IMG/VR virus record: IMGVR_UViG_3300031578_003644
Coordinates: 1 to 44,674 of that record
Direction: 5' to 3' (one strand)
DNA: 44,674 nucleotides
From: a virus
Below, piece after piece: positions 1,924 to 41,269 of this stretch. The translations under genes were made by a program, and so were the position numbers. Within the stretch, counting starts at the first letter, position 1, and each line of letters opens with the position of its first letter. Below the pieces are notes generated by a model, which saw only the letters and a list, made by a program, of their open reading frames with translations, had not been told where the DNA came from and made no database searches.

Positions 1924-1986
1924 TAGCCCCCCTCAGTCGAAAGTAGGAGGAAGACGGAGAGCCATCACGACTTAAACGGGGGGCTA
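1924..1986. ncRNA. Strong two-part stem-loop between early genes
   Basis: Perfect 9-bp arms TAGCCCCCC (1924-1932) and GGGGGGCTA (1978-1986) enclose a second 5-bp stem, AGTCG (1935-1939) with CGACT (1968-1972). The remaining 28-nt loop is purine-rich. The element fills the gap between the 2011-2415 gene and the wHTH gene. It has no trailing T-run, so it is not a classic terminator, and the inner part does not fold as a tRNA. It could be an mRNA leader or processing element, or a small RNA. The structure is seen; transcription is not shown. Confidence 0.45.
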
Positions 1987-2010
1987 ACATAGATACCATC
2001 CATCAACCTA

Positions 2011-2415
2011 TTAACTATTTACAGATACAGGTTTCTTAGATTTACGTCCAAACACCTTTGGAAGACCATCAATAGTATCATCTATAGGCTCTGTAGCGTA
2101 TGGAGTACCATCTGAAACAGTGAATCCCTCTATCTTAGGGGAAGTCACCAAGTCAAATGCTTTAGGTGGAGCATTATCTATAGTAGTTATAGGTGGAGGG
2201 ATGAACATACCTGTAAGCCTGTTTAACGCTGTAAGCTCATCAACTTCAACTGGTTCCTCAATAGACACCACTTTAGTAGGCTTCTCACGTACAATGTCTC
2301 CCCCTGGAACAGTTTCAGTTGTCACAGGCTCCTTAACATTTACTTCAGGGTTATCTATGCCAATAATATCTATTGGCTCAAAGAACCTCTTCTCCCTACG
2401 TCTAGCACGACTCAT
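2011..2415 (-). CDS. Hypothetical disordered protein, 134 aa
   Basis: The start is basic (SRARRREKRFF). The rest is Pro/Val/Asp/Thr-rich without a predicted globular core, so the protein is probably largely disordered. It starts at an ATG about 34 nt downstream of a TATA box (TTTATATA on the minus strand, 2445-2452), so it may head its own transcript. No homologue is recognised. Confidence 0.55.
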   Translation of the reverse strand: MSRARRREKRFFEPIDIIGIDNPEVNVKEPVTTETVPGGDIVREKPTKVVSIEEPVEVDELTALNRLTGMFIPPPITTIDNAPPKAFDLVTSPKIEGFTVSDGTPYATEPIDDTIDGLPKVFGRKSKKPVSVNS

Positions 2416-2444
2416 GACAGTTCACTAGGTAATTTACCCATACT

Positions 2445-2452
2445 GTATATAA
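2445..2452 (-). promoter_or_regulatory. Archaeal TATA box upstream of the 2011-2415 gene
   Basis: The minus strand reads TTTATATA about 34 nt before the ATG at 2413-2415. This spacing fits an archaeal TBP site with a very short leader. Confidence 0.45.
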
Positions 2453-2492
2453 AGGTTATTGACGAAGATGGGATAGGTTATCTTTTAATATA

Positions 2493-2621
2493 TATTCATA
2501 TCCAGCATCGTCCAACCACTGTAGTAACGCTATAATCTTCTCCTCTAATGGTGGGATAGTAATTTTTGTATAGTTCTCTTCCCCATGCCTCTAGATTTTC
2601 TTCAGTCTCAGTGTAAGCCAT
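2493..2621 (-). CDS. Small hypothetical protein, 42 aa
   Basis: The peptide begins MAYTETEENLEAWGRELYKN and ends GRCWI. Its ATG overlaps the stop of the preceding 58-aa gene by one base (TAATG) and has a very good Shine-Dalgarno sequence (GGAGG) upstream. The ribosome-binding site and the coupling are the support. Function is unknown. Its last residues resemble the GRCWI near the N-terminus of the 6019-6156 product. Confidence 0.6.
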
Positions 2622-2797
2622 TACTCTTCCTCCTCCGTCCTATTGACATGGGTAACTATGGATTCTTGTTTTGGAACGAAGTTCGGACAACTATAATCCC
2701 ACCAAACTAAGCGAGCAAGCAGATCACAACCTACTTGTTCTTCATGAGATTCCTCTACTTCAAAGGCATGATCACAGTATAGACATTCTGCTTTCAT
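2621..2797 (-). CDS. Small CxxC protein, 58 aa
   Basis: The product starts MKAECLYCDHAFEVEESHEE and has a CxxC (C5, C8) plus C24 and C37, which suggests zinc binding. It ends in a Glu run. It starts 15 nt after the stop of the ParB-like gene and is coupled by TAATG to the next small gene. It is one of several tiny Cys-pair proteins in the early operons. Function is unknown. Confidence 0.6.
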   Translation of the reverse strand: MKAECLYCDHAFEVEESHEEQVGCDLLARLVWWDYSCPNFVPKQESIVTHVNRTEEEE

Positions 2798-2812
2798 TCT
2801 GTTGACCTCTTT

Positions 2813-3814
2813 TCAGATGTAAGTTCGGATAGGTACTTCTCCCCTCGTATCATATATCTTGTTAGCAGTTCTCTCAATCTGTTTCTGACGCCTCTGCCTA
2901 AGTAGTGGGTCTGGATCAAGAACCCATTGACGTACAGCGTTAACACGTATAATTGGCTGAGTCCTGTCTTTGGGTATAATGTTATGTGTTCCATCAAACA
3001 TGTTCTTCACCTTCATAACAGACTTAATTATACTTGTAGACACGAAGAATGATAGTTCTGGGTATCCACTGCTTTCAAGATGAGTGGCTACCTTATTATA
3101 AGATTGAACTAAATCCTCTAGTATCTTAGCAATAGCACCACGATCAATCATAGGCATCTTCTTCAACTCAGCGTCATACAACTTTGTCTTAGGGTTCCTA
3201 ACAACTGATTTACCGTCATCACCAACATCTCCCCTAAGATGCTCCCTAGTATCCTCAGTGTTCCATCCCTTAGTCTCAGCAGTCTGTAGATAACTTAACG
3301 TATAGTCTGGATGGGTCTTAAGTATCTCATCAACAATAGACGCTGATAGACTAGACTTACCTATAAACTCCTGAATGGCTGGGCCAGTGTTCATTCTACT
3401 CAGTATTCTACTCATCTCAGCGTTATCTTTACCAACTTTAATAGCGTACTCAGTTTTAGATAACCCAGACGCTTTATAATCATCAAAGTAGTGTTCAGCC
3501 TCCTTCATCAGATTCCTAGTCTTACTGCGTGTAAGGCTGTTACGGATATACTGTCTAGCCTCATCATCACTCATATCCTGTATTGTAACCCAAGACTCAG
3601 GTATCTCAGACATACCAATACGATCACGCAATACCGTTATCTTCTGCTCACCATCCACAAGTTCCAGTTTATCTCCAACTGGTCGGCATATTATTGATAT
3701 AGTAACCCCATCAGCACGGAGACTATCCTCAAGTTCCTTCAAATCATCAGAGGATGGTTTGTTGAAGTTCCACGGAGAGGGGGTGAACTTTGTTATATTT
3801 ATCATTTGTGACAT
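2813..3814 (-). CDS. ParB/Spo0J-like DNA-binding protein
   Basis: The 333-aa protein has an N-terminal ParB/sulfiredoxin-like domain (about 5-95). It is marked by the opening ITKFTPSPWNFNKPSSDDLKEL, LxxSLRxDG and ELVDGEQKITVLRDRIG. The GEQKIT stretch replaces the GERRxR CTP-binding motif of chromosomal ParB, so CTP switching may be absent. A helix-turn-helix follows (about 115-142, GLSKTEYAIKVGKDNAEMSRIL) as in ParB-family centromere binders. No ParA-like ATPase is seen in the window. The start codon is covered by one copy of the dispersed near-palindrome TTTGNGACATCNCAAA (3805-3820), which suggests autoregulation. It may be a parS-like binder for genome maintenance or a global regulator. Family call is good; the role is inferred. 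Confidence 0.75.
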   Translation of the reverse strand: MSQMINITKFTPSPWNFNKPSSDDLKELEDSLRADGVTISIICRPVGDKLELVDGEQKITVLRDRIGMSEIPESWVTIQDMSDDEARQYIRNSLTRSKTRNLMKEAEHYFDDYKASGLSKTEYAIKVGKDNAEMSRILSRMNTGPAIQEFIGKSSLSASIVDEILKTHPDYTLSYLQTAETKGWNTEDTREHLRGDVGDDGKSVVRNPKTKLYDAELKKMPMIDRGAIAKILEDLVQSYNKVATHLESSGYPELSFFVSTSIIKSVMKVKNMFDGTHNIIPKDRTQPIIRVNAVRQWVLDPDPLLRQRRQKQIERTANKIYDTRGEVPIRTYI

Positions 3815-4000: not shown

Positions 4001-5073
4001 CGTATCTCTGTCTGTCCACTACGTGCTGTATATTGTGTACCACCCTCTGGACGCATCCACACCTCATCTGGTTTACCATACGCTATTCCGGTAGTGTATT
4101 CACCAAAGTTGTGATTCCATGTTGATGGTAAATATATGTCTATGCTGCTTAACACATCTTCCGGGTCAAATATCTTAGCAGGTATCCCCTTCCAGAAGTC
4201 TCTGCGTTCCCACTGTATATCACTGATTATTCCCTCTACTGCTATCATTGCATCCCACTTAACGTATTTTGAAGTCATATCAGGTGTACCATCCTTATTC
4301 TGAGGTAACCATGTTAGATAGACATCATACGCTTCAACAATGTCTACCGTGAACAATCCTAACGCCTCACGTACAGCTGTAGGGGCTTCAACCGAAATGG
4401 TTGCTCCTCCCTTGAACACTGTTCTAGTCTCAGCACCAGCTGACCCATATATCAGGTAACCATACTCATTAACCTTTATCTTACCATAAGTTGTACATGG
4501 TTTGAATGCGTGGTCAGGGAACTTTATCTTACCCCAAGCCTCAGCCAGTGTATCATTGCTTGTCTGGAACTTGGTGAACACAAACGGCTCATCAGACCCC
4601 TTTTCACGGAATGCTCCGAACAATGTCATCTCTAGTAACTTAAGTTTAGGGTCTAACGGTTCACCGAAACCAGTATTAGGTTTGCCGAACAGCTTCTTCC
4701 TAGTATCAAGAGTCTTACCCTCCAAATCAGTAAGCCCACCAGCAACAGCCTCACTTAAACCCTTACCAAGTATCGCCTTCTCAGCCTTCTCTCTCATCTC
4801 CTGTGCTCTATCCCTAAACTCACCTGACCCTATCAGATACCCTTCAAGTGGGAGCACCTCGTTACTAATAGTTCCAACTTGTTTCAAGCCACCATACCTA
4901 TCAAGTATCTTCCTCTGAGTGACAGCCCAAGCTATACGCTGTACAGCCTCTGGACTCATAGGTGCTTTAACAAGCTTAGCCTCTTCCTCTCTGTACACCT
5001 TCTCTATCTCAGATACAGGTATACCTAACCCAGTTCTCACAGAGAACTCATCCCATGTCTTTCTATCTGTCAT
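3904..5073 (-). CDS. Hypothetical replication-module protein, 389 aa
   Basis: No domain is recognised with confidence. The N-terminal 130 residues are charged and helical. The central and C-terminal parts are rich in beta-prone segments with aromatic residues (for example EYGYLIYGSAG and VDIVEAYDVYLTWLPQ). That, and the position between ERCC4 nuclease and ParB-like genes, would suit a single-stranded-DNA-binding (OB-fold) or accessory replication protein, but this is speculation. It is preceded by a GGAGGT ribosome-binding site and begins 2 nt after the upstream stop. A slippery T TTT TTA near its end may yield a longer form (see 3824-4000). Confidence 0.6.
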   Translation of the reverse strand: MTDRKTWDEFSVRTGLGIPVSEIEKVYREEEAKLVKAPMSPEAVQRIAWAVTQRKILDRYGGLKQVGTISNEVLPLEGYLIGSGEFRDRAQEMREKAEKAILGKGLSEAVAGGLTDLEGKTLDTRKKLFGKPNTGFGEPLDPKLKLLEMTLFGAFREKGSDEPFVFTKFQTSNDTLAEAWGKIKFPDHAFKPCTTYGKIKVNEYGYLIYGSAGAETRTVFKGGATISVEAPTAVREALGLFTVDIVEAYDVYLTWLPQNKDGTPDMTSKYVKWDAMIAVEGIISDIQWERRDFWKGIPAKIFDPEDVLSSIDIYLPSTWNHNFGEYTTGIAYGKPDEVWMRPEGGTQYTARSGQTEIRCIGFLPLPGMTTVGSQDTSEGTLKQYEGFVG

Positions 5074-5075
5074 GA

Positions 5076-5351
5076 TTATACCTCCACATCAATACTTTCA
5101 TTAGAACGTGGAGTTCCAGTCCAATGCGTAGCACAATTACATAGTTGCTCTACCCTATATAATCCATATTGGATACACTCCCAACGTTCCCCATCCTTTG
5201 GTCTATTATATTCCTCAAACGCATTAAATACTGCTTCAGCCTGTTTATCGTTATCTACAGTAAATTCAGAGTGAACGATCCAATCATCAACTGGACGCTG
5301 TTGTTTTATAATATAAAACGGTTTCCAAATTGATTTTGGTTTACCACTCAT
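5076..5351 (-). CDS. Hypothetical protein, 91 aa
   Basis: The protein is compact, aromatic-rich and mildly acidic (WKPFYIIKQQRPVDDWIVHSE), with two Cys near the C-terminus (CNC). Its ATG overlaps the stop of the ERCC4 nuclease gene in an ATGA, so translation is coupled. The pattern of alternating aromatic and charged residues suggests a small beta-alpha fold. Function is unknown. Confidence 0.6.
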   Translation of the reverse strand: MSGKPKSIWKPFYIIKQQRPVDDWIVHSEFTVDNDKQAEAVFNAFEEYNRPKDGERWECIQYGLYRVEQLCNCATHWTGTPRSNESIDVEV

Positions 5352-6022
5352 CTTACTGCCTCCACAAGCATCTTAGCCCTCTTCAATGGAAGTTTATCCA
5401 CTTTCTTACATAGAGTCTCAGCACCCATGTCACGTATATCACTGAACGTGGGTGTAACCTTAAGGATACGCTTACCAAGCGTACCACCAATACCATCTAC
5501 ACAACAAACCATATTATATCGTATCTCCTTAACATCCACACTCTTCTTAACAGCAGGTCCAGGTGGCGTGGAAACCGTGTAACCCATCTCCCTGTTATAT
5601 ATCATAGCTATACGTCTAGCAGTGTCCTCTATATCAGTGCTCTGTATTATCGGTATACCCCAACCAAGTATCGTACTATGCTGTATCTGTCGAAGAGTCT
5701 GTTTCTCTCCATCAGTCAACACAAACCCCTTCTTGAAGCGCCTACGACCTATACGGACATTCCTAACCTTCTCAGTATCATCTATTACTCCCTCGAACAG
5801 TACGAGGGGCTTCTTGTAGGTATCCTTCAGCACTTGTATCTGCTTAAAGTATCTACCATCGTTCACACTGTTTAACGCATCAGTCAACTCCTTCCTCTCA
5901 ACACCTATGTCACCGAACACATAATCACCTGAACCGTATCTGCTAACCTCAACGTTGTCAACCAGCTTTCTAAGAGCAACTATAAGTTTAGTTGTCTCTC
6001 TATCATCACAGTACAGAGTCAT
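5348..6022 (-). CDS. ERCC4/XPF-type structure-specific nuclease
   Basis: The 224-aa protein has the ERCC4 nuclease core: DDRE near the N-terminus (D6-E9), GDYVF (32-36), and VERKELTDAL (41-50) containing the ERKxxxD metal-binding signature, followed by PLVLFEG. The C-terminus has a helix-hairpin-helix segment (DGIGGTLGKRIL). This is the minimal nuclease + HhH layout of archaeal XPF/Hef-like enzymes without the helicase. Such enzymes cut branched DNA at flaps or forks. Beside the RadA-like gene it probably serves recombination-dependent replication or resolution before packaging. It is coupled by ATGA overlaps to both neighbours. Confidence 0.85.
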   Translation of the reverse strand: MTLYCDDRETTKLIVALRKLVDNVEVSRYGSGDYVFGDIGVERKELTDALNSVNDGRYFKQIQVLKDTYKKPLVLFEGVIDDTEKVRNVRIGRRRFKKGFVLTDGEKQTLRQIQHSTILGWGIPIIQSTDIEDTARRIAMIYNREMGYTVSTPPGPAVKKSVDVKEIRYNMVCCVDGIGGTLGKRILKVTPTFSDIRDMGAETLCKKVDKLPLKRAKMLVEAVR

Positions 6023-7365: not shown

Positions 7366-7866
7366 TACCAATGAATCGTTTTCCTGTAGAACAACTGTTC
7401 TACATATCGACATTCCGTGCATCGTTCCTTGTCGTTTCGTACAACATTGTTCCACGGAATGTCATCTAGGTAACAGAAACAGTTACCATAGTTACACGAT
7501 GTATAGGAAAACGAAAGTAGTATATATATTACTTTAGAAAAATGGTATGTAGAATAAGTTTAACAGTTCTCGGTTAAATACATCAAAGTTAACCGTGTTG
7601 ACATAAAATAGATGTCACACGACACGTTTTTTATATACGTTTGTCTATATATTCACTTTGTTGTCAAAACTATATTACCGTTTCAGGTAAGGTAGTTGAA
7701 ATGGTTTACCTAGTCAAGTGATTCTTAGCCGTTCGATGAAGACACGAATGTTCTATGTGTGCAGGATGTTTAGTTAAACCATAGAGTTTATTTTACCCAT
7801 ATCTGTAAAATTGTGTGCTTATATACTGTTACTATATACTACTTTATATATTAGTTCTGTAATAAA

Positions 7867-7998
7867 CTAAGATTCTAATTCAGGGAAATATATCCAGTCA
7901 CAAGCCCAAAGTTGATGTCTATCATGATAGAAGGTAAACCACAGAAGACGTGAACAGAAACAATCCTCAATGAGTAAAGGACAACATTCACACATCAT
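7867..7998 (-). CDS. Small Cys-rich protein, 43 aa
   Basis: The peptide starts MMCECCPLLIEDCFCSRLLW and has six Cys, five of them in its first 15 residues, then a Trp/His-rich stretch (HDRHQLWACDW). It is the last gene of the right early operon. Its ATG overlaps the stop of the membrane peptide gene (ATGA). Zinc binding is likely; function is unknown. Confidence 0.5.
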   Translation of the reverse strand: MMCECCPLLIEDCFCSRLLWFTFYHDRHQLWACDWIYFPELES

Positions 7999-8081
7999 AT
8001 TCTACCACCACGTTCATTAAATATCTCGAATACCACAGCACCAATGAGAAATAGAATTATGATAAGTATAATTGCTTTCAT
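7995..8081 (-). CDS. 28-aa single-span membrane peptide
   Basis: MKAIILIIILFLIGAVVFEI forms one strongly hydrophobic segment with a charged C-terminal tail (NERGGRI). Both ends are ATGA-coupled, to the gene before and the gene after, which supports translation. Such tiny viral membrane peptides can act in lysis, superinfection exclusion or host membrane remodelling. No specific role can be read. Confidence 0.5.
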   Translation of the reverse strand: MKAIILIIILFLIGAVVFEIFNERGGRI

Positions 8082-8212
8082 CCTTTATACCAGTTACTCT
8101 TATCAGATATCTCTACATATAGGATAGAGTCTCCACAGGTGCTATCCCATACGGTAATATATGGGGTAGGGGCAGGGGTACTAGGTAAGGGTGGGGGTAC
8201 TTGACTATTCAT
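8078..8212 (-). CDS. Small Pro-rich protein, about 44 aa
   Basis: The product starts MNSQVPPPLPSTPAPTPYIT and ends SDKSNWYKG. The chosen ATG overlaps the stop of the upstream gene. An open frame back to GTG at 8263 would add MYISMSEHLKNMGYMKY, which looks like the end of a winged helix, so the start is uncertain. The Pro codons produce the G-run cluster on the other strand (8163-8197). Function is unknown. Confidence 0.4.
   Translation of the reverse strand: MNSQVPPPLPSTPAPTPYITVWDSTCGDSILYVEISDKSNWYKG
8163..8197 (+). other. G-run cluster (possible G-quadruplex)
   Basis: Five G-runs (8163-8166, 8169-8172, 8175-8178, 8189-8191, 8193-8197) lie on the + strand with short loops except one of 10 nt. 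They are the complement of Pro codons of the 8078-8212 gene, so they may have no separate function. Confidence 0.3.
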
Positions 8213-8456
8213 GTACTTCATGTACCCCATGTTCTTGAGGTGTTCGCTCATACTTATATACACTCGCTACTTGCGAACGTTCTAATATTCGGTCTTTATG
8301 TGAATCTTCGGTATTTACAGAAAGTCTTTCTTTAGGTGGGGTTAAGATAATATCATTACCATCCTTGTAATTAAGGATGAACTCAACTATCTTTATACGA
8401 ATAGGATTATCTAATGCCTTCAACATTTTCAAGAACTTGATATCTTCTGCGCTCAA
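8205..8456 (-). CDS. ArsR-like HTH N-terminus, 83 aa
   Basis: The N-terminus, FLKMLKALDNPIRIKIVEFI, is the classic first half of an ArsR-type winged helix. The remaining residues lack a clear recognition helix. A recognition-helix-like string (MSEHLKNMGYMKYM) is instead found in the overlapping downstream frame (8212-8263). The gene may be a diverged regulator or a frame-disrupted one. It starts with TTG (8454-8456) overlapping the upstream TGA (TTGA coupling). Confidence 0.5.
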   Translation of the reverse strand: MSAEDIKFLKMLKALDNPIRIKIVEFILNYKDGNDIILTPPKERLSVNTEDSHKDRILERSQVASVYKYERTPQEHGVHEVHE

Positions 8457-8596: not shown

Positions 8597-8792
8597 GCAT
8601 CACACATTCTTCTACGAGTTTCTTTAGTTTAGGATTATTTCCTCTAGTATCAACTAAGTAAGGACAATCCATATCAACGAAAAACATACAGGTATAACAC
8701 TCCCCATCAATGAATGGTTGAAAGTCAGCCATACAAGTTCCTCTATGTTCTCCTCTGTTTTCTAAGTCTTTCCAGTGTTGGTTTGCCGTCAA
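8583..8792 (-). CDS. Small Cys-rich protein, 69 aa
   Basis: It carries Cys at C21, C32, C35 and C43 (MADFQPFIDGECYTCMF, then MDCPYLVDTRG), a likely metal site. The start is TTG (8790-8792), placed 3 nt after the stop of the metallophosphoesterase gene. No family is recognised. Confidence 0.5.
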   Translation of the reverse strand: MTANQHWKDLENRGEHRGTCMADFQPFIDGECYTCMFFVDMDCPYLVDTRGNNPKLKKLVEECVMLDNK

Positions 8793-8795
8793 TTG

Positions 8796-9641
8796 TTATC
8801 CGTCTCTCACAAAGTCTATGATGTTAGGACACTTATACGTAAAGTGTATCACGAAACTATGGTCATCATCATCAACTAACACTATCACCCCCCCTATATC
8901 TGGCTGTGTCTTACCGTACATAACCACCTTATCACCCATAGGATACCACGCTTGCCACCCCGGAACAAGAACAGCATGGATGTTAGGGTAATCTAGATGA
9001 ACGTATTTATGTGAATGCCCTCTCATAAGATAGTCTGGTCTAGGTATCTTACCCTCACTCACAGCCACCTTAATACCAAGTATCTCACGGTCTAATGCAG
9101 CAGCCGGGTACATGGTAGAGTATGAACATGCATGGGCAAGGTTCAATACCTTTGATGTCCCTCTTAGACGAATATTAGCGAACTTACCATGAAAGGCAGC
9201 ATCCTCAGTGATTGGGTGCAACTTGGATACTAGGTCACTGTGTATCTTATAGTTCTGTGCCTCATGATACGCAGTACCACTGAACTGATGATACGTTCTA
9301 CCGCGAACCAAGTCCTCCATTAACACGGTAGCCCCCTCAACCTGATAGTTTATATCAGGAGTGACCGTGTCAACTCCATTCTCCCGTGGGTTACATCCCT
9401 GGCACGCATCCCCTAGATGTATAATCGTGTCAACACGAAACTCATCACATGTAGCACCAAATGTGTACCAAGCCTTCAACAGATCACTCTGACCATCACT
9501 AACACCAGCACTAAGATTCTTCCCAGTGTCAGTGTAGATAGGCATCTCAGGCCAAGGAGCATAATCTGACCCTACGTGGGTATCCGCTATGACTGCTACG
9601 CTTCTCTTAATACGGTCTAGATTAATTGTTTTAGCCTTCAA
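8796..9641 (-). CDS. Calcineurin-like metallophosphoesterase
   Basis: All signature blocks of the family are visible in the 281-aa protein: IADTHVGSD (D20, H22), HLGDA (GD at 77-78), GTAYHE in place of GNHE (122-127), LAHACS (H170) and MRGHSHKYVH (GHSH at 208-211). The missing Asn of GNHE is a departure from the usual motif. Viral members of this family act as nucleases (Mre11/SbcD-like) or phosphodiesterases. Next to replication genes, a DNA-processing or nucleotide-signal-degrading role is plausible. It overlaps the upstream SANT-domain gene by 11 nt. Confidence 0.8.
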   Translation of the reverse strand: MKAKTINLDRIKRSVAVIADTHVGSDYAPWPEMPIYTDTGKNLSAGVSDGQSDLLKAWYTFGATCDEFRVDTIIHLGDACQGCNPRENGVDTVTPDINYQVEGATVLMEDLVRGRTYHQFSGTAYHEAQNYKIHSDLVSKLHPITEDAAFHGKFANIRLRGTSKVLNLAHACSYSTMYPAAALDREILGIKVAVSEGKIPRPDYLMRGHSHKYVHLDYPNIHAVLVPGWQAWYPMGDKVVMYGKTQPDIGGVIVLVDDDDHSFVIHFTYKCPNIIDFVRDG

Positions 9642-9867
9642 TTACAACACCAAGCTTCTGTAGATACTTATAGTCTATCTTTGGTTTAAATCTATCAGAA
9701 TATAATGGAAGATTCAATCGTTCAGCACGTTTACATATAGCGTTCCACGTCCTATCTGGGAACACTGATGTTATCTGTTCTTTAGTTAATTCGTTAATAT
9801 TCCATAGTTTTATGAGTATATCTGTCTGCTCATCACTCCAAGGAAGGTTCCTTATAGGGGCAGTCAT
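9631..9867 (-). CDS. SANT/Myb-like helix-turn-helix protein, 78 aa
   Basis: Residues 8-52 (LPWSDEQTDILIKLWNINEL to WNAICKRAERLNL) show a Myb/SANT-type helix-turn-helix with a WNAI recognition helix. I chose the ATG at 9865-9867, which overlaps the previous stop (ATGA), over an upstream in-frame codon at 9939. The same domain forms the N-terminus of the LAGLIDADG-like protein at 38034-38630, so the two are paralogous in this region. It is probably a DNA-binding regulator. Confidence 0.65.
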   Translation of the reverse strand: MTAPIRNLPWSDEQTDILIKLWNINELTKEQITSVFPDRTWNAICKRAERLNLPLYSDRFKPKIDYKYLQKLGVVIEG

Positions 9868-10241
9868 CCCCAAACACCAGTTGACCCGCGAACTCTTATC
9901 GCCTCTAACAACACCTCCATTTCCGGTGTATTCTTCCACTCGTTAACTAGGTATATATCCTCAGCCTTACCATCAGTATACAGTTGACGCATAGCAGCTA
10001 TCGTACTACTATCCTTCATAAGAAAGTGTCTATACAACTCCTCATACTTAGAGAACCTAAGAGCATAAGGTACAGGATCATCTTTACCACTAAACCTACG
10101 TAACCCCTCCTCATATGAGTCCTTCAGAAACCGTGGAGTCTTAAAAGCACTTGTACGAGCTAGAAACTTGATGTTAAACTCTTTCTCACAGTCAGCCTTA
10201 AGTTTAGCAGCCATCTTGTAAGAGATTATGTGGAAGGGCAT
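9864..10241 (-). CDS. Hypothetical protein, 125 aa
   Basis: The protein is soluble and mainly helical, with mixed charge (MAAKLKADCEKEFNIKFLAR). No domain is recognised. It is the second gene of the right early operon and couples to the SANT gene by an ATGA overlap. Confidence 0.6.
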   Translation of the reverse strand: MPFHIISYKMAAKLKADCEKEFNIKFLARTSAFKTPRFLKDSYEEGLRRFSGKDDPVPYALRFSKYEELYRHFLMKDSSTIAAMRQLYTDGKAEDIYLVNEWKNTPEMEVLLEAIRVRGSTGVWG

Positions 10242-16755: not shown

Positions 16756-17760
16756 ATGAAATATAACCGTATTCTAATTACTGGTGGAGCAGGCTTCATT
16801 CCTAGCAATTTCTTCCAATATCTTACAACGTTGGAGGAACAACCCTTAATTAGATTATTTGACCGTAGATATGGGCAAGACCTAACTAGGTGGGAAGATG
16901 TTGATAGAGCGTGGAGTAACTTTGAACCTGATGCTATTATCAACTTTGCCAGCAATACACATATAGATACTAGCATTAAAGACCCTAGAAGGTTCTATGA
17001 GAACAATCTGGGGTTGGTGGTTAATGTGCTTGAGGCGTGTCGTAAGTATGATACTAGACTCATTCAGATTAGCAGTTCAGAGGTATATGGAACAAATAAA
17101 TATGTACCAAAACTAGTAGCCACAAATATTAAAGATAAAGACAAACTTAGGAAAATTATGGATATAAAGAACGTGGATGCCCCCCCGATGGATGAGTGGC
17201 ATCCACTTTGCCCTCATAGCCCGTATGCTTGGACTAAAGTATGCCAAGACAGAGCAGTATACTCATGGTGGCAAACATATGAGTTAGATGCCTCGGTAGT
17301 GCGTCCATTCAATCAGTATGGTCCCTACCAACAGTTAGAGAAGATGATACCTAAAACGATAACACGTATAATGAAGGGTGAACATATCCCTGTATACGGT
17401 GAAGGGCTTGCTAGAAGGGACTGGGTATTTGTTCAGGACACTGTCAGAGGCATTTGGATGGCTCTTGAGAAACTACCTCCGGGCGATGTTGTTAACCTTG
17501 CTACTGGTGTTAATTATTCGGTTATTGAACTTGTGGATAACATCAAGCAGGTTATGGGTGAGTTAGGGTACGAGGATAAGAGTAAGACTGTGACAGTGGA
17601 TCACGTAGATGATAGACTAGGGCATGTCTACAACCTGTTAGGTGATGCATCCAAAGCTGAGAATCTATTAGGATGGACTCCTGAACACACGTTACAGCAA
17701 GGACTACGTAAGACTGCTGAATGGGTGTTAAACACTGATTGGGGACTTGTATCACGGTGA
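16756..17760 (+). CDS. NAD-dependent sugar epimerase/dehydratase (SDR, RmlB-like)
   Basis: The 334-aa extended SDR has the dinucleotide motif TGGAGFI (9-15), SSSEVYG (106-112) with its catalytic serine area, and Y157-A-W-T-K161 as the YxxxK pair. RPFNQYGPYQ and the RDWVFVQDTVRG block (about 225-236) are typical of NDP-glucose 4,6-dehydratases and related epimerases. It would act on the NDP-sugar made by the adjacent nucleotidyltransferase, with which it overlaps by a GTGA. The exact product cannot be told from sequence. Confidence 0.85.
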   Translation: MKYNRILITGGAGFIPSNFFQYLTTLEEQPLIRLFDRRYGQDLTRWEDVDRAWSNFEPDAIINFASNTHIDTSIKDPRRFYENNLGLVVNVLEACRKYDTRLIQISSSEVYGTNKYVPKLVATNIKDKDKLRKIMDIKNVDAPPMDEWHPLCPHSPYAWTKVCQDRAVYSWWQTYELDASVVRPFNQYGPYQQLEKMIPKTITRIMKGEHIPVYGEGLARRDWVFVQDTVRGIWMALEKLPPGDVVNLATGVNYSVIELVDNIKQVMGELGYEDKSKTVTVDHVDDRLGHVYNLLGDASKAENLLGWTPEHTLQQGLRKTAEWVLNTDWGLVSR

Positions 17761-35821: not shown

Positions 35822-36777
35822 ATATTCTTTTAACTGGTGCAGGGTTCTTAGGTTCTAGACTCTTAGATTATATTCTACCTATACACAACGTTACGGTGGT
35901 TGATAGGCTAGACTATGGTTCAGCCGGTATCTATCCTCATCTAAACCATGATAACATATGCTTTGTAGACAAAGATATTTGTGACATCTCAAATGTTAAT
36001 GACTTTGATGCTATAATACACCTTGCAGCGTTGGTGGGTGAACCACTCTGTGAGAAGCACCCTGATGAGGCTAAGAGGGTTAACGTTGAGGGCACGAAGC
36101 ATCTATGTGACTTAGCTGAGGATGCTAACGTAAAGTTCATCTTCTCATCAACATGCAGCAACTATGGGGTTACTGAGGGGTACGCAAATGAAGAGACTCC
36201 GTTGAATCCACAGGGACTATACGCTGAAACTAAGGTTGAGGCCGAGAAATATATTATCAGTAATAATCATGATTACACAATTCTACGGTTCAGCACATTG
36301 TATGGGTGTTCGTACAGGATGAGACTAGACCTTATGGTTAACCAGTTCACGTATGATGCGTGCGTTAATCAGATGATTGAAGTGTATTCCCCTAATGCGT
36401 ATCGCCCTAATATTCATGTGAAGGATGCCTGTTACGCCATACTTGCTGTTCTACTTAATCCAATAGATACGCAAAATAAAATATACAATGTTGGTGGAAA
36501 GGAGAGCAACATGACTAAACGGGAGATAGCTAACATAGTTACCAGTTTATTTGTTATGCCAAAGGCTGAGGTTGTTGAGATGGATAGAGGTGATAAACGA
36601 GATTATAAGGTGGACTTCTCTAAGATACAAAGTGAGTTGGGGTATATAACTTGCTTTAACATCGGGGGCGGCGTTAGGGAAGTTAGGGAACTTATAGGCT
36701 CATATCACCCTAGAGCACTACGGATGATGAATAATGTGAAGGGATACAATGCTACAGGTATACACTCCATCATTTGA
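35818..36777 (+). CDS. NAD-dependent sugar epimerase (SDR)
   Basis: From the TTG at 35818, which overlaps the preceding TGA, the 319-aa protein reads NILLTGAGFLGSRLLDYI (dinucleotide fold) and FIFSSTCSNYG. GLYAETKVEAEKYI contains the YxxxK pair, and RFSTLYG is a further family block. An earlier in-frame start at 35740 would add residues that overlap the previous gene and is not favoured. It may be a 4-epimerase or reductase for the NDP-sugar. A copy of the dispersed palindrome lies at codons about 54-59. Confidence 0.82.
   Translation: MNILLTGAGFLGSRLLDYILPIHNVTVVDRLDYGSAGIYPHLNHDNICFVDKDICDISNVNDFDAIIHLAALVGEPLCEKHPDEAKRVNVEGTKHLCDLAEDANVKFIFSSTCSNYGVTEGYANEETPLNPQGLYAETKVEAEKYIISNNHDYTILRFSTLYGCSYRMRLDLMVNQFTYDACVNQMIEVYSPNAYRPNIHVKDACYAILAVLLNPIDTQNKIYNVGGKESNMTKREIANIVTSLFVMPKAEVVEMDRGDKRDYKVDFSKIQSELGYITCFNIGGGVREVRELIGSYHPRALRMMNNVKGYNATGIHSII
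35978..35993. promoter_or_regulatory. Dispersed 16-bp near-palindrome, copy 5
   Basis: TTTGTGACATCTCAAA lies inside the epimerase gene, read as C-D-I-S-N. It is a full match to the consensus. Confidence 0.6.
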
Positions 36778-37762
36778 TGAGCAGGATATAGAGTGGGTTT
36801 CATCAGCCATTAAGAGTGGTTGGTTGAATGAAGCAGCCTATACTAAGTTGCTTGAGGAAGGTATCGCTAAACGTATAAACAGGAAGTACGCGGTTGTAAC
36901 TACCAGTGGCACAACAGCTATATTCCTAGCGTTAAAGGCTATGGGGCATCAGAGAGGTGACGTTGTTACTGTACCTAATTATACTGCTATTGGGGTGTTA
37001 TCCGCTGTACGGTTGGCTGGTGGTAACGTGTTAATAGTTGACACAGATGATAACGGCAACATAGATATTAAGTCTCACTTGGAATTAGATTATATCGTAG
37101 CAGTTCATAACAACGGTGTGTATTGCGATGTCTCAAATATACGTGAGATGTACCCTGACTCTATAGTGATTGAGGATGCTTCACAGGCGTTAGGTTCATT
37201 CCATGATGGTAAGCCATTGGGGTCATTCGGTGACATCTCTGTGATGAGTCTCGCCACATCTAAGATAATTACTATGGGGCAGGGTGGTGTAGTTGCCACG
37301 GACAACTATGATACTTATCAGACATTGAAAGCGTTAAAGGATCAGGGTAGGGTTGAACGTGGTGGTAAGTATATGTCTGAGGGATATAACTTTAAGGTGA
37401 CTGAGATGCAGAGTGCGTTGGGATGTTCACAGTTAACTAAACTGGATGACAGGGTTGAGAAGATGAAGCATATCTATAAGGTGTATGCTGAGTATATTCC
37501 AGATATGGAACACAGTGATGAGACACTATTTTGGAGGGCGTTCGACATGATTCCACAGGAACTTAGAACAAATAAACTTGTATCCAAGTTGAGGGAGAAA
37601 GGTATAGAGACTCAACCATTCTATGAGGCGTTCAACTATATGTATTATCCACGGAGCGTGATATACTCTCGTTCTGGGCTGTATCTGCCATCTATGCCTA
37701 ACCTCACAGATGAAAATATAGAATACGTGTGTAAAAGCATTTATAGGGGGATATTGGTTTAA
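36749..37762 (+). CDS. DegT/DnrJ/EryC1-family sugar aminotransferase
   Basis: The 337-aa PLP enzyme has TTSGTTAIFLALKAM (phosphate-binding start), VIEDASQALGSFHDGKPLGS (PLP-ring Asp-x-x-Gln) and SLATSKIITMGQGG with the Schiff-base lysine (K172). It would transaminate a 3- or 4-keto NDP-sugar made by the dehydratase, producing the aminosugar for formyl- or acetyl-transfer. The ATG overlaps the epimerase gene by 29 nt. A palindrome copy lies within it. Confidence 0.87.
   Translation: MLQVYTPSFDEQDIEWVSSAIKSGWLNEAAYTKLLEEGIAKRINRKYAVVTTSGTTAIFLALKAMGHQRGDVVTVPNYTAIGVLSAVRLAGGNVLIVDTDDNGNIDIKSHLELDYIVAVHNNGVYCDVSNIREMYPDSIVIEDASQALGSFHDGKPLGSFGDISVMSLATSKIITMGQGGVVATDNYDTYQTLKALKDQGRVERGGKYMSEGYNFKVTEMQSALGCSQLTKLDDRVEKMKHIYKVYAEYIPDMEHSDETLFWRAFDMIPQELRTNKLVSKLREKGIETQPFYEAFNYMYYPRSVIYSRSGLYLPSMPNLTDENIEYVCKSIYRGILV
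37122..37137. promoter_or_regulatory. Dispersed 16-bp near-palindrome, copy 6 (inverted)
   Basis: ATTGCGATGTCTCAAA is the consensus in the opposite orientation with one end mismatch, inside the aminotransferase gene (read C-D-V-S-N). Confidence 0.55.
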
Positions 37763-37775
37763 GGAGAACAGAGAT

Positions 37776-37976
37776 ATGTTAAGAAAATATGATCAGTGGG
37801 CTGGAAATCCAGATGGAGTTGAAGCCGATAAGACAAGGTGTATTGAAGCAGTTTCAGATGACACCGGGTTCCATTTTCATCAATGCCGAAGAAAGAAAGG
37901 TTACGGTAAGGATGGGTTATACTGTAAACAACACGCAAAAAGACACCCAATATTAGTTGATGGTGAAACGGTATGA
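37776..37976 (+). CDS. Small zinc-finger-like protein, 66 aa
   Basis: C22, H33/H35, C37, C50 and H53 in the order RCIEAVSDDTGFHFHQCRRK ... LYCKQHAKR make a compact Cys/His metal site. It sits between the aminotransferase and the mini-ORF upstream of the LAGLIDADG-like gene, and a GGAG ribosome-binding site precedes the ATG. Function is unknown. Confidence 0.6.
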   Translation: MLRKYDQWAGNPDGVEADKTRCIEAVSDDTGFHFHQCRRKKGYGKDGLYCKQHAKRHPILVDGETV

Positions 37977-38026
37977 AGATAGCATTAACCAATATATCGA
38001 TAGACTTATATTACTACTACACTTGA
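37973..38026 (+). pseudogene. 17-codon mini-ORF, possible glycosyltransferase 5' remnant
   Basis: The ATG overlaps the previous TGA (ATGA), as functional genes here do, but the frame ends after MKIALTNISIDLYYYYT. The MKIAL opening resembles the start of many GT4 enzymes, including the KIGIL start of the GT4 gene that lies beyond the LAGLIDADG-like ORF. It may be a leftover of the original gene start after insertion of that ORF. This is a weak inference from a very short match. Confidence 0.3.
38006..38013 (+). promoter_or_regulatory. TATA box of the LAGLIDADG-like gene (leaderless)
   Basis: TTATATTA is centred about 25 nt before ATG 38034, with no ribosome-binding site. The inserted gene therefore appears to carry its own promoter. 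Confidence 0.5.
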
Positions 38027-38033
38027 TTAGTAT

Positions 38034-38630
38034 ATGATTTCAATGTATAAATGGTCTGAGGAGGATCTTGATATATTGATGGAGCTTTATCCTATAGAAG
38101 ATAAAGAAATATTATTATCAGTTTTTGTTGGTGCCAGTTGGAACGCTATAAAGATTCAGGCCAATAGACTTGGATTAAAACGTAAAAAACATAATAGATT
38201 AAAAAAACAGTATCCTATTATGGATGAGTTAACTAAACACATCATTTCGTGGAGCATAGCATGGGAGGGATCTATAATGCTTCATAAACAGGGGGTTCAT
38301 GAAATATATCCATCTGTCTCCATAGGGAATACGGATTTCTATCTTTTAGAGAGAATAAAAAACATGACTGGTTATGGAAGATGTGAAAGGACAACATGGC
38401 ATGAAAACACCAATAATAAACCAGTTAAAAAATGGGACATAAGAAGCATCCCAGAAATTCATTCGTTTTTAATCCAGATAGTAGATTATCTTCCAGCCAA
38501 AAAACAAAGAGCTGCGTTAATGATAGAATATTTAAACAGTAGACTATCTCGGTGGGGAATGCCTTATAATGACCGTGAGTTTAAAATACAAGAGGAGATA
38601 TCTAAACTTAATAGGAGAGGAAAGCAATAA
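38034..38630 (+). CDS. LAGLIDADG-type homing endonuclease-like protein with SANT/Myb HTH
   Basis: The 198-aa protein has an N-terminal SANT/Myb-like HTH (about 5-50; KWSEEDLDILMEL ... WNAIKIQANRLGL) paralogous to the 9631-9867 product. Residues 68-170 follow the LAGLIDADG fold: SWSIAWEGSI (72-81) in place of LAGLIDADGS with the acidic residue kept, YPSVSIGNTDFYLLERIKN, W-D-I-R, and FLIQIVDYLPAKKQRA. A single-motif protein would dimerise. The gene is AT-rich relative to neighbours and has its own TATA box, as expected for a mobile freestanding endonuclease. Activity is not certain because the motif is degenerate. Confidence 0.65.
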   Translation: MISMYKWSEEDLDILMELYPIEDKEILLSVFVGASWNAIKIQANRLGLKRKKHNRLKKQYPIMDELTKHIISWSIAWEGSIMLHKQGVHEIYPSVSIGNTDFYLLERIKNMTGYGRCERTTWHENTNNKPVKKWDIRSIPEIHSFLIQIVDYLPAKKQRAALMIEYLNSRLSRWGMPYNDREFKIQEEISKLNRRGKQ

Positions 38631-39658
38631 AAATAGGTATTTTAAGTACCCCGTTAATAGAGTGTCCCCCAAAAACGTATGGGGGGCTTGAGCGCGTAAA
38701 CTATGATTTAGCCAACGCACTTAGCCTATTAGGACACAAAGTTATTCTGTATGCACCTAATGGTTCAATTAAACCAGAAAAAGCATTTCTCTATGAAATA
38801 GGTAATCCAACTGGATTGCATTGTAATTGGTTACAAGAGGAACAAAATATGTGGAATAAGATTAAGCACACATTTATTGACTTAGATATAATTCTAGGAA
38901 GTAATTGGTTTGGTATGGAGTATGCTAGTAAGAAACAGAACCCAGAACTTAAGGTGTGTCACACACATCATGGACACATTAACCCTCAGTATTGGACACA
39001 GCCACCGTTTAAGCTTAACCTCATCGCTATATCTCAATGGATGGTGAAGGCGTACCGTGAACAAGCAGGACTTGAAGCTCGTCATTGCTATAATGGTGTT
39101 GATATGGACCTATACCCGTATAAAGAGAGTCACGGTGATAGACTTATGTTCTTGGGTCGCATCGACCCAATCAAAGCTCCGGACATTGCTATTGATGTGG
39201 CTGAGAGGCTTAAGAAGCAGATTGACATAGTTGGTGGCACTAGATTTGTGTCTGACTTAGATTATGTGGAGAGGGTTAAAGCTAAGTGTAGACAGTCTGA
39301 GTACGCTAACTTTGTTGGAGAAGTGGATCACGCTACTAAGGTTAGGTATCTTCAGAATGCTTCCACGCTTATCATTCCAAGCAAGTTCGGAGAGCCATTC
39401 GGACTTATTTGTGTTGAGGCTATGGCTACTGGGTGTGTTCCTATAGCGTTCAATGATGGAGCACTTGGTGAAATAATTGTGAATGGTGAGACAGGGTTCA
39501 TTTGCGATACCTCAAATGAGCTTATTGACGCTGTTGAGAAGTCTACTACTATCAGTTCGTCTGCTTGTAGGAAGCGTGCCGAGGGATTCAGTAAGGAAGT
39601 GTGTGCCAAGTCATATGAATATAGGTTTAAGCAGATATTGGGGGGTGATGAATGGTGA
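38627..39658 (+). CDS. Glycosyltransferase family 4 with non-standard ATA start
   Basis: The frame from ATA 38627 reads IKIGILSTPLIECPPKTYGG, a complete GT4 N-terminus with the GGLERV entry. It continues through HCYNGVDM, FLGRIDPIKAPDIAI and IPSKFGEPFGLICVEAMATG (E-x7-E) to 343 aa. GGAGAGG lies about 9 nt before the ATA. No ATG, GTG or TTG occurs in this frame until about 38814, deep inside the domain. A single G-to-A change at 38629 would explain the loss of an ATG and also turn the previous gene's TGA into its present TAA. So either ATA is used or the gene is impaired. A palindrome copy lies inside. Confidence 0.75.
   Translation: MKIGILSTPLIECPPKTYGGLERVNYDLANALSLLGHKVILYAPNGSIKPEKAFLYEIGNPTGLHCNWLQEEQNMWNKIKHTFIDLDIILGSNWFGMEYASKKQNPELKVCHTHHGHINPQYWTQPPFKLNLIAISQWMVKAYREQAGLEARHCYNGVDMDLYPYKESHGDRLMFLGRIDPIKAPDIAIDVAERLKKQIDIVGGTRFVSDLDYVERVKAKCRQSEYANFVGEVDHATKVRYLQNASTLIIPSKFGEPFGLICVEAMATGCVPIAFNDGALGEIIVNGETGFICDTSNELIDAVEKSTTISSSACRKRAEGFSKEVCAKSYEYRFKQILGGDEW
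39501..39516. promoter_or_regulatory. Dispersed 16-bp near-palindrome, copy 7 (diverged)
   Basis: TTTGCGATACCTCAAA keeps both outer arms but differs in the centre. It lies inside the GT4 gene (read C-D-T-S-N). Confidence 0.4.
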
Positions 39659-40528: not shown

Positions 40529-41269
40529 ATGACGTATACTCCAATATGGGTTACAGAGTCTGGTCTAGAAGCCATTATACAGGTAGACCTACACAGTGGC
40601 ACTCATCCTAACCTTAATGAATGCCTAGATATGGCTGAGGAGGTTGAGGTTGGTATGGAGGCGCGTGCTCTTGGCAGCCATAGTTCTCCGATTCTATTCA
40701 AGTTTGATGTAACCCCTGGGACCACCCTCATCAGAGATTCAGTGGGTTGGGTGATGGCTGGCAGCCCAGCTATGACTAGGGGTATAGCGGTGGTTCCTCC
40801 ATATACTCCAATACTGTCTGTGGTTAGTGGTACGCTAAGCAGGAACAAAGCATCACTCATAAGTGCAACCAGTTGGGAGGTTCTGGCTGAAGGACCGGGG
40901 GTTAGTACGGACTTTATCATTCTTAAGCGTAGGAGTAAGACTGGTAAATATAATGGGTATGCTCTATACTTCTATTCCTCTAAAGCACCGTATGGTGGGT
41001 ATCAGACTCTTAGGGCTACTATTATGTATGGGCATAACGTTGACACTGAGATACTGAAGGAGTATGCTAACCTTAAGACTGCTGTTAAAGTCATAGAGTC
41101 CAGAACACGTTCTGCTGAACCTGTGGGTATTGCTGCGTATACTATGGGTGATACTCAGTCATTCATTAACACTGACTTCTCCTCTCAGATGGATACCATC
41201 ACCAGAAGAATAGAGGAGATTGAGAGACTGTATCTCCCCAATAAAATGATAAGTGTTGCCGTGATGTAG
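40529..41269 (+). CDS. Putative head-tail connector protein, 246 aa
   Basis: The protein is of mixed alpha-beta composition, ending in a helix (MDTITRRIEEIERLYLP). It is first in the block adaptor - terminator - tail tube - gp10-like - chaperones - tape measure. That order suggests a head-completion/adaptor protein that joins the portal to the tail. No sequence motif proves it. The next gene begins directly after its stop. Confidence 0.5.
   Translation: MTYTPIWVTESGLEAIIQVDLHSGTHPNLNECLDMAEEVEVGMEARALGSHSSPILFKFDVTPGTTLIRDSVGWVMAGSPAMTRGIAVVPPYTPILSVVSGTLSRNKASLISATSWEVLAEGPGVSTDFIILKRRSKTGKYNGYALYFYSSKAPYGGYQTLRATIMYGHNVDTEILKEYANLKTAVKVIESRTRSAEPVGIAAYTMGDTQSFINTDFSSQMDTITRRIEEIERLYLPNKMISVAVM

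Follow-up and report, generated by a model that had tools for sequence, protein, structure and literature searches.

A probable insertion of a LAGLIDADG-type gene at the start of a coupled glycosyltransferase gene in a virus treated as a tailed virus of archaea

How can a viral glycosyltransferase gene that encodes a complete N-terminus lack a canonical start codon, and what is a LAGLIDADG-like reading frame doing directly in front of it? This question is raised by a metagenomic contig, the IMG/VR-type virus record IMGVR_UViG_3300031578_003644, whose 44.7 kb (44,674 nucleotides) are referred to here as the window. The window is treated as a tailed virus of archaea because it encodes an archaeal-type RadA/Rad51-family protein (PF08423) and because the best named match of its terminase is Halogranum tailed virus 1 (HGTV-1; 25%). 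Positions 30–40 kb hold a sugar-nucleotide and glycosyltransferase cassette, within which a DegT/DnrJ/EryC1-type aminotransferase gene (36749–37762, + strand; PF01041, E 8e-58) is followed by a 66-aa ORF without an assigned function (37776–37976, +), a mini-ORF of 17 codons, an ORF of 198 aa (38034–38630, +), and a GT4-family glycosyltransferase gene (38627–39658, +). An Rfam scan of the window returned no matches.

The GT4 frame is open from 38615 to 39658, a TAG at 38612–38614 closing it upstream, and the first ATG, GTG, or TTG within it is the TTG at 38816, initiation at which would lose 63 residues. Translated from the ATA at 38627–38629, the gene encodes 343 aa that contain both the N-terminal GT4 domain (PF13439; E 2e-11, 44.5 bits against a cut-off of 28.5) and the C-terminal Glycos_transf_1 domain (PF00534; E 4e-21, 75.6 bits against a cut-off of 26.4). 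Homology to the relatives begins at residue 2 after this ATA (KI...STP...PP..YGGLERV) and the alignment runs on from there free of gaps; the N-terminus is complete, and the ATA is the only plausible start codon of the full-length protein, as a preliminary description of the locus had proposed. That description had also named a good ribosome-binding site, which we find as a Shine-Dalgarno-like AGGAG at 38613–38617 (+), inside the 3′ end of the 198-aa ORF and 9 nt before the ATA, and had placed the junction a single base away from ATGA. The ATA overlaps the stop codon of the 198-aa ORF (TAA, 38628–38630) by four nucleotides, ATAA, and the same four-base geometry recurs as ATGA or GTGA at 17757, 33688, 34410, and 43358 of the window, in agreement with this placement. 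Among the start regions that were inspected in the window, that of the GT4 gene alone lacks a canonical start. We also weighed whether GT4 might be entered from the endonuclease frame by a −1 frameshift, and rejected this because no slippery heptamer was seen by eye at GGA AAG CAA TAA and because the TAG at 38612 closes the GT4 frame.

The ATA could be an error of assembly or sequencing, or a minor allele, the real junction having a canonical start that overlaps the endonuclease stop. In favor of this, a single base separates ATAA from an overlap used elsewhere in this genome, and the record is a metagenomic contig. Substitution errors are uncommon in assembled consensus sequences, however, and we consider this explanation unlikely; the insertion proposed below would stand even if it were correct. 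The junction DNA pattern, with A or G allowed, was found in none of the contigs of the searched set, the window's own record included.

The 198-aa ORF is intact and has an N-terminal Myb/SANT-like domain. Its match to Pfam LAGLIDADG_1 (E 0.022, 16.1 bits) falls below the cut-off of 23.1, and it is matched by the PHROG profile phrog_5046 at E 6e-9 and by a 257-aa LAGLIDADG ORF of a related virus (L006, see below) at E 8e-11. A structure model of the protein that was built from three sequences, the ORF and two relatives, reached a pLDDT of 60.7 and presented the element order of a LAGLIDADG domain (alpha-beta-beta-alpha-beta-beta-alpha); a first model built from two sequences (pLDDT 43.7) had been discarded for its poor quality. 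Structural alignment of the model with the PDB listed 50 entries, LAGLIDADG-type enzymes with I-CreI variants on top (best row: Z 13.2, rmsd 4.5, 115 residues), and Foldseek gave an E-value of 4e-5. The likeness to I-CreI concerns residues 60–190 of the model, for which other rows gave Z 12.7–12.8 and an rmsd of 2.4 over 107 residues, whereas I-CreI is intron-encoded, has no N-terminal Myb/SANT-like domain, and is only 12–16% identical. The predicted fold upholds the earlier view of the ORF as LAGLIDADG-like, and the protein is probably a free-standing LAGLIDADG-fold homing endonuclease. The enzyme may nevertheless be inactive, given its Pfam score under the cut-off and the degenerate form of the motif in the LAGLIDADG helix, which reads SWSIAWEGS and has Trp in place of two Gly; residues E78-G79-S80 align with the acid, Gly, and Ser of the relatives. 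PHROG 5046 is labelled 'HNH endonuclease', a label that looks wrong given that a strong match of this family in a large uncultured phage (L004), which reads YIAGLFDGEGSI, hits LAGLIDADG_1 at E 4e-8.

The best named relative of the ORF is gp104 of HGTV-1 (NC_021328.1, 196 aa), which is annotated as a LAGLIDADG endonuclease. It resembles the 198-aa protein in size, in combining a Myb/SANT-like N-terminus with a single LAGLIDADG domain, and in being encoded by a free-standing gene of an archaeal tailed virus, but it lies among tRNA genes rather than at a gene start, has a regular LAGFVAGEGS motif, passes the Pfam cut-off, and is 27% identical over 123 residues. The 257-aa ORF of L006 has the same domain order, is 25% identical through to the C-terminus, and likewise stands directly before a gene start; it differs in its two Myb/SANT-like domains, its intact YLAGLMDGDG motif, and its insertion site.

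The preliminary description had called for relatives without the ORF, and two contigs of this kind were recovered. Single-protein scans of the viral contig set with the 198-aa ORF, GT4, the terminase, and the aminotransferase gave no matches, nor did scans of the genome contig set or a plasmid search with the 198-aa ORF; L006 (IMGVR_UViG_3300033064_004529, also held with longer flanks as L007) was found with a two-sequence GT4 profile and L008 (IMGVR_UViG_3300033149_001352) with a second GT4 profile. L006 is 45% identical to the window in the terminase, 44% in the aminotransferase (its positions 1967–3004), and 53% in GT4, and it carries homologues of the window genes at 40529, 41270, 41800, 42855, and 43358 in the same order (39–63%); judged by these sequence comparisons, it is a true relative of the window virus. 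In L006, the stop of the aminotransferase gene overlaps the GT4 start as GTGA with nothing between them, and the GT4 protein begins MKIALISTP (the sequence reads MKIALISTPFFGVPPPAYGG). The GT4 of L008 (44% identical to that of the window) starts MNVCLISTPF at an ATG that is ATGA-coupled to the gene upstream, a radical-SAM gene. In both relatives, therefore, GT4 has a canonical start that is coupled in the same way, and this site has no endonuclease gene; these uninterrupted sites come from other virus species (44–53% GT4 identity) and are not alleles of the window virus. Nor is L006 the exact state before insertion, as in the window the 66-aa ORF, too, lies between the aminotransferase and GT4 genes. 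A homologue of this ORF was sought in L006 and L008 and none was found, which makes it a second lineage-specific gene at the junction of the aminotransferase and the mini-ORF. The endonuclease family is itself found elsewhere in L006, where the 257-aa ORF (4726–5499) lies two genes past GT4, immediately ahead of a gene that starts with GTG; because this member sits at another place than that of the window, the family, as classified by sequence, occupies different sites in related viruses, which is an independent sign of mobility.

The mini-ORF (37973–38026; MKIALTNISIDLYYYYT) begins with an ATG that overlaps the TGA of the 66-aa ORF (37974–37976) as ATGA, preceded at 6 nt by a Shine-Dalgarno-like GGTGA (37962–37966, +). 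Its first codons, ATGAAGATAGCATTA (37973–37987, +), encode MKIAL, identical to the start of the L006 GT4 protein, and are proposed to be the stranded original start of the gene. Codons 2–5 of all 4717 potential starts (ATG, GTG, or TTG, either strand) in the window were scored against L006, and the mini-ORF alone attained the score of KIAL; its GT4-like start and its coupling had already been noted in the preliminary description. The likeness ends after codon 5; further on, the mini-ORF resembles GT4 no more than other gene starts do. The mini-ORF thus seems, from its sequence, to be a short native GT4 end of five codons left on the far side of the endonuclease ORF, and since the present GT4 N-terminus is complete, the window appears to hold the first GT4 codons twice, flanking the endonuclease gene. 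A target-site duplication at the DNA level was rejected as not significant alone: the starts of the mini-ORF and the present GT4 gene (ATGAAGATAG and ATAAAAATAG) agree at 8 of 10 positions, and among 780 pairs of gene starts 18 match at least as well.

The same figures bear on an alternative under which the endonuclease gene is ordinary cargo between genes, the ATGA of the mini-ORF arose by chance, GT4 has undergone neither interruption nor exchange, and the ATA is an unrelated change or a tolerated start. Gene sets of this kind commonly show ATGA overlaps and starts with Lys-Ile; the stub, moreover, is no more GT4-like past codon 5 than other gene starts, and the two starts do not match exceptionally well at the DNA level. 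Against this stand the unique KIAL score, the fact that the GT4 starts of both relatives overlap an upstream stop by four bases, at the very position that the stub occupies in the window, and the mosaic structure of GT4 described below; we give this alternative little credence.

The 198-aa ORF had also been described as carrying its own promoter, for which we found support in an archaeal TATA-box-like CTTATATT (38005–38012, +), the sole + strand YTTATATW between 10 and 44 kb of the window. It lies 29 bp before the ATG at 38034, as expected where an archaeal transcript is leaderless, and a leaderless transcript would be predicted here; bacterial-type promoters showed no excess near the ORF. Over the whole window YTTATATW is less frequent than in shuffled sequences (10 observed, 15.5 in shuffles). 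Four of the ten matches cluster at 7630–8260 (+), where no + strand gene was inferred, and are possibly promoters of unrecognised RNA or short genes. GC content is 26% at 37973–38033 and 33.5% in the 198-aa ORF, as compared with 42% in the window; the proposed inserted cassette (37988–38626, +, ends approximate) is of low GC and is missing between GT4 and the gene upstream of it, the aminotransferase gene in L006 and the radical-SAM gene in L008.

The GT4 gene itself appears to be composite. Over residues 1–160 the identity of the window protein is 43% with L006 and 50% with L008, and over residues 161–331 it is 65% with L006 and 41% with L008. The best breakpoint falls near residue 166 (93 informative sites; permutation p 5e-5), in a test that does not show which of the two, the window or L006, underwent the exchange. 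GC at third codon positions (GC3) is lower by 0.13 in the first 90 GT4 codons than in the rest of the gene (permutation p 0.018); no larger drop is seen in any of the 18 genes compared. GT4 codons 1 to ~160 are possibly donor-derived, and the mosaic and GC3 patterns fit a donor-derived 5′ part that arrived with the endonuclease gene, the stub resembling the native lineage as represented by L006.

Homing endonucleases cut alleles that lack their gene, and repair then copies in the gene together with flanking sequence. We consider it probable that a LAGLIDADG gene carrying an archaeal promoter of its own entered a coupled GT4 gene near codon 5 and brought a replacement 5′ end, and that GT4 is now reached by reinitiation at an AUA. 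As suggested in the preliminary description, the insertion of a mobile endonuclease gene at the GT4 start is supported by comparison: by the uninterrupted arrangement in the two relatives, by what appears to remain of the former start, and by the fold predicted for the ORF. The ancestral GT4 gene would have been translationally coupled to its left neighbour, and the insert, coming from a donor virus by double-strand-break repair, would have left MKIAL behind and carried along a replacement start region and perhaps the first 160 codons of GT4. By analogy with known homing enzymes, the protein would cut insert-free GT4 genes near their first codons, after which the cassette would be copied in. 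As for the later repair that had been envisaged, a replacement 5′ end arriving with the insert accounts for it better than point repair does.

In its present state GT4 would remain complete and be read by termination-reinitiation at the endonuclease stop, from a Shine-Dalgarno sequence inside the endonuclease gene, and the AUA should leave its translation weak and dependent on coupling to that gene. Our confidence is lower for a stricter reading, tentative at best, in which a replacement 5′ part of the target gene travels along with the endonuclease gene and GT4 is made only by coupled AUA translation behind the latter. A decaying pseudogene whose start was lost after insertion is improbable: it would account for the 63 codons without a canonical start, AUA being a poor initiator in well-studied systems, but not for 343 stop-free codons, intact FGEPFGLI..EAMA (donor-site region) and PP..YGGLERV (N-terminal) motifs, and a ribosome-binding site kept in the exact coupling geometry. 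All 64 start codons have reportedly been measured in E. coli, and a search of the literature for an archaeal precedent of AUA initiation found none. The AUA junction would be a natural test of how far translational coupling offsets a poor start codon in archaea.

Free-standing homing endonucleases are already known from T4-like phages and from fungal mitochondria. The closest described process is that of the fungal mitochondrial mORFs, in which a LAGLIDADG endonuclease ORF inserts with a foreign C-terminus of the target gene and strands the native one, as in Allomyces atp6 and Glomus atp6, cox2, and nad3 (PMC3630166). The arrangement proposed for the window works alike, with an endonuclease ORF at one end of a gene, the functional end beside it, and the apparently stranded native end beyond; it differs in that mORFs exchange a C-terminus in a mitochondrion, whereas here an N-terminus with its start codon would be exchanged in a virus, leaving a stub of ~5 codons, and because of these differences it is not filed as an mORF. 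The free-standing endonucleases of T4 (seg, mob) similarly lie between host genes in a tailed virus and in some cases bring their own promoter or embed those of their neighbours, but they belong to the GIY-YIG or HNH families of a bacterial phage, and the part of the T4 account that we draw on does not describe replacement of a target-gene terminus (PMC2988022). The locus would be a readable record of such an invasion in an archaeal-type virus: a LAGLIDADG gene where a viral cargo gene begins, relatives that lack the interruption, what seems to be a remnant of the former start, and a start that has formed anew. If the replacement 5′ part did arrive in this way, the N-terminal half of a GT4 enzyme would have been exchanged, making homing a route for domain exchange among viral glycosylation genes, and with coupled AUA translation the retention of a selfish gene would be tied to the expression of a viral sugar-transfer gene.

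Several further traces of such elements were observed in the three contigs. In L006 (4726–5503), the 257-aa LAGLIDADG gene ends 3 bp before the GTG-start gene, which is BppU_N-like, and both begin Met-Ser-Trp, either a possible second insertion at a gene start or chance. The radical-SAM gene upstream of GT4 in L008 (4127–6004) appears to be intein-bearing, with a LAGLIDADG-like motif, at the iron-sulphur CxxxCxxC motif, and the same contig (G002) has a weak LAGLIDADG_1 match in a 257-aa frame at 8688–8840 (−). In the window, a 102-aa ORF at 9631–9939 (−) encodes a Myb/SANT-like domain resembling the N-terminal part of the endonuclease (35% over 51 residues when compared with that of L006); it overlaps the ORF at 8796–9641 by 11 bases and may represent either a fusion that was split or what is left of an endonuclease.
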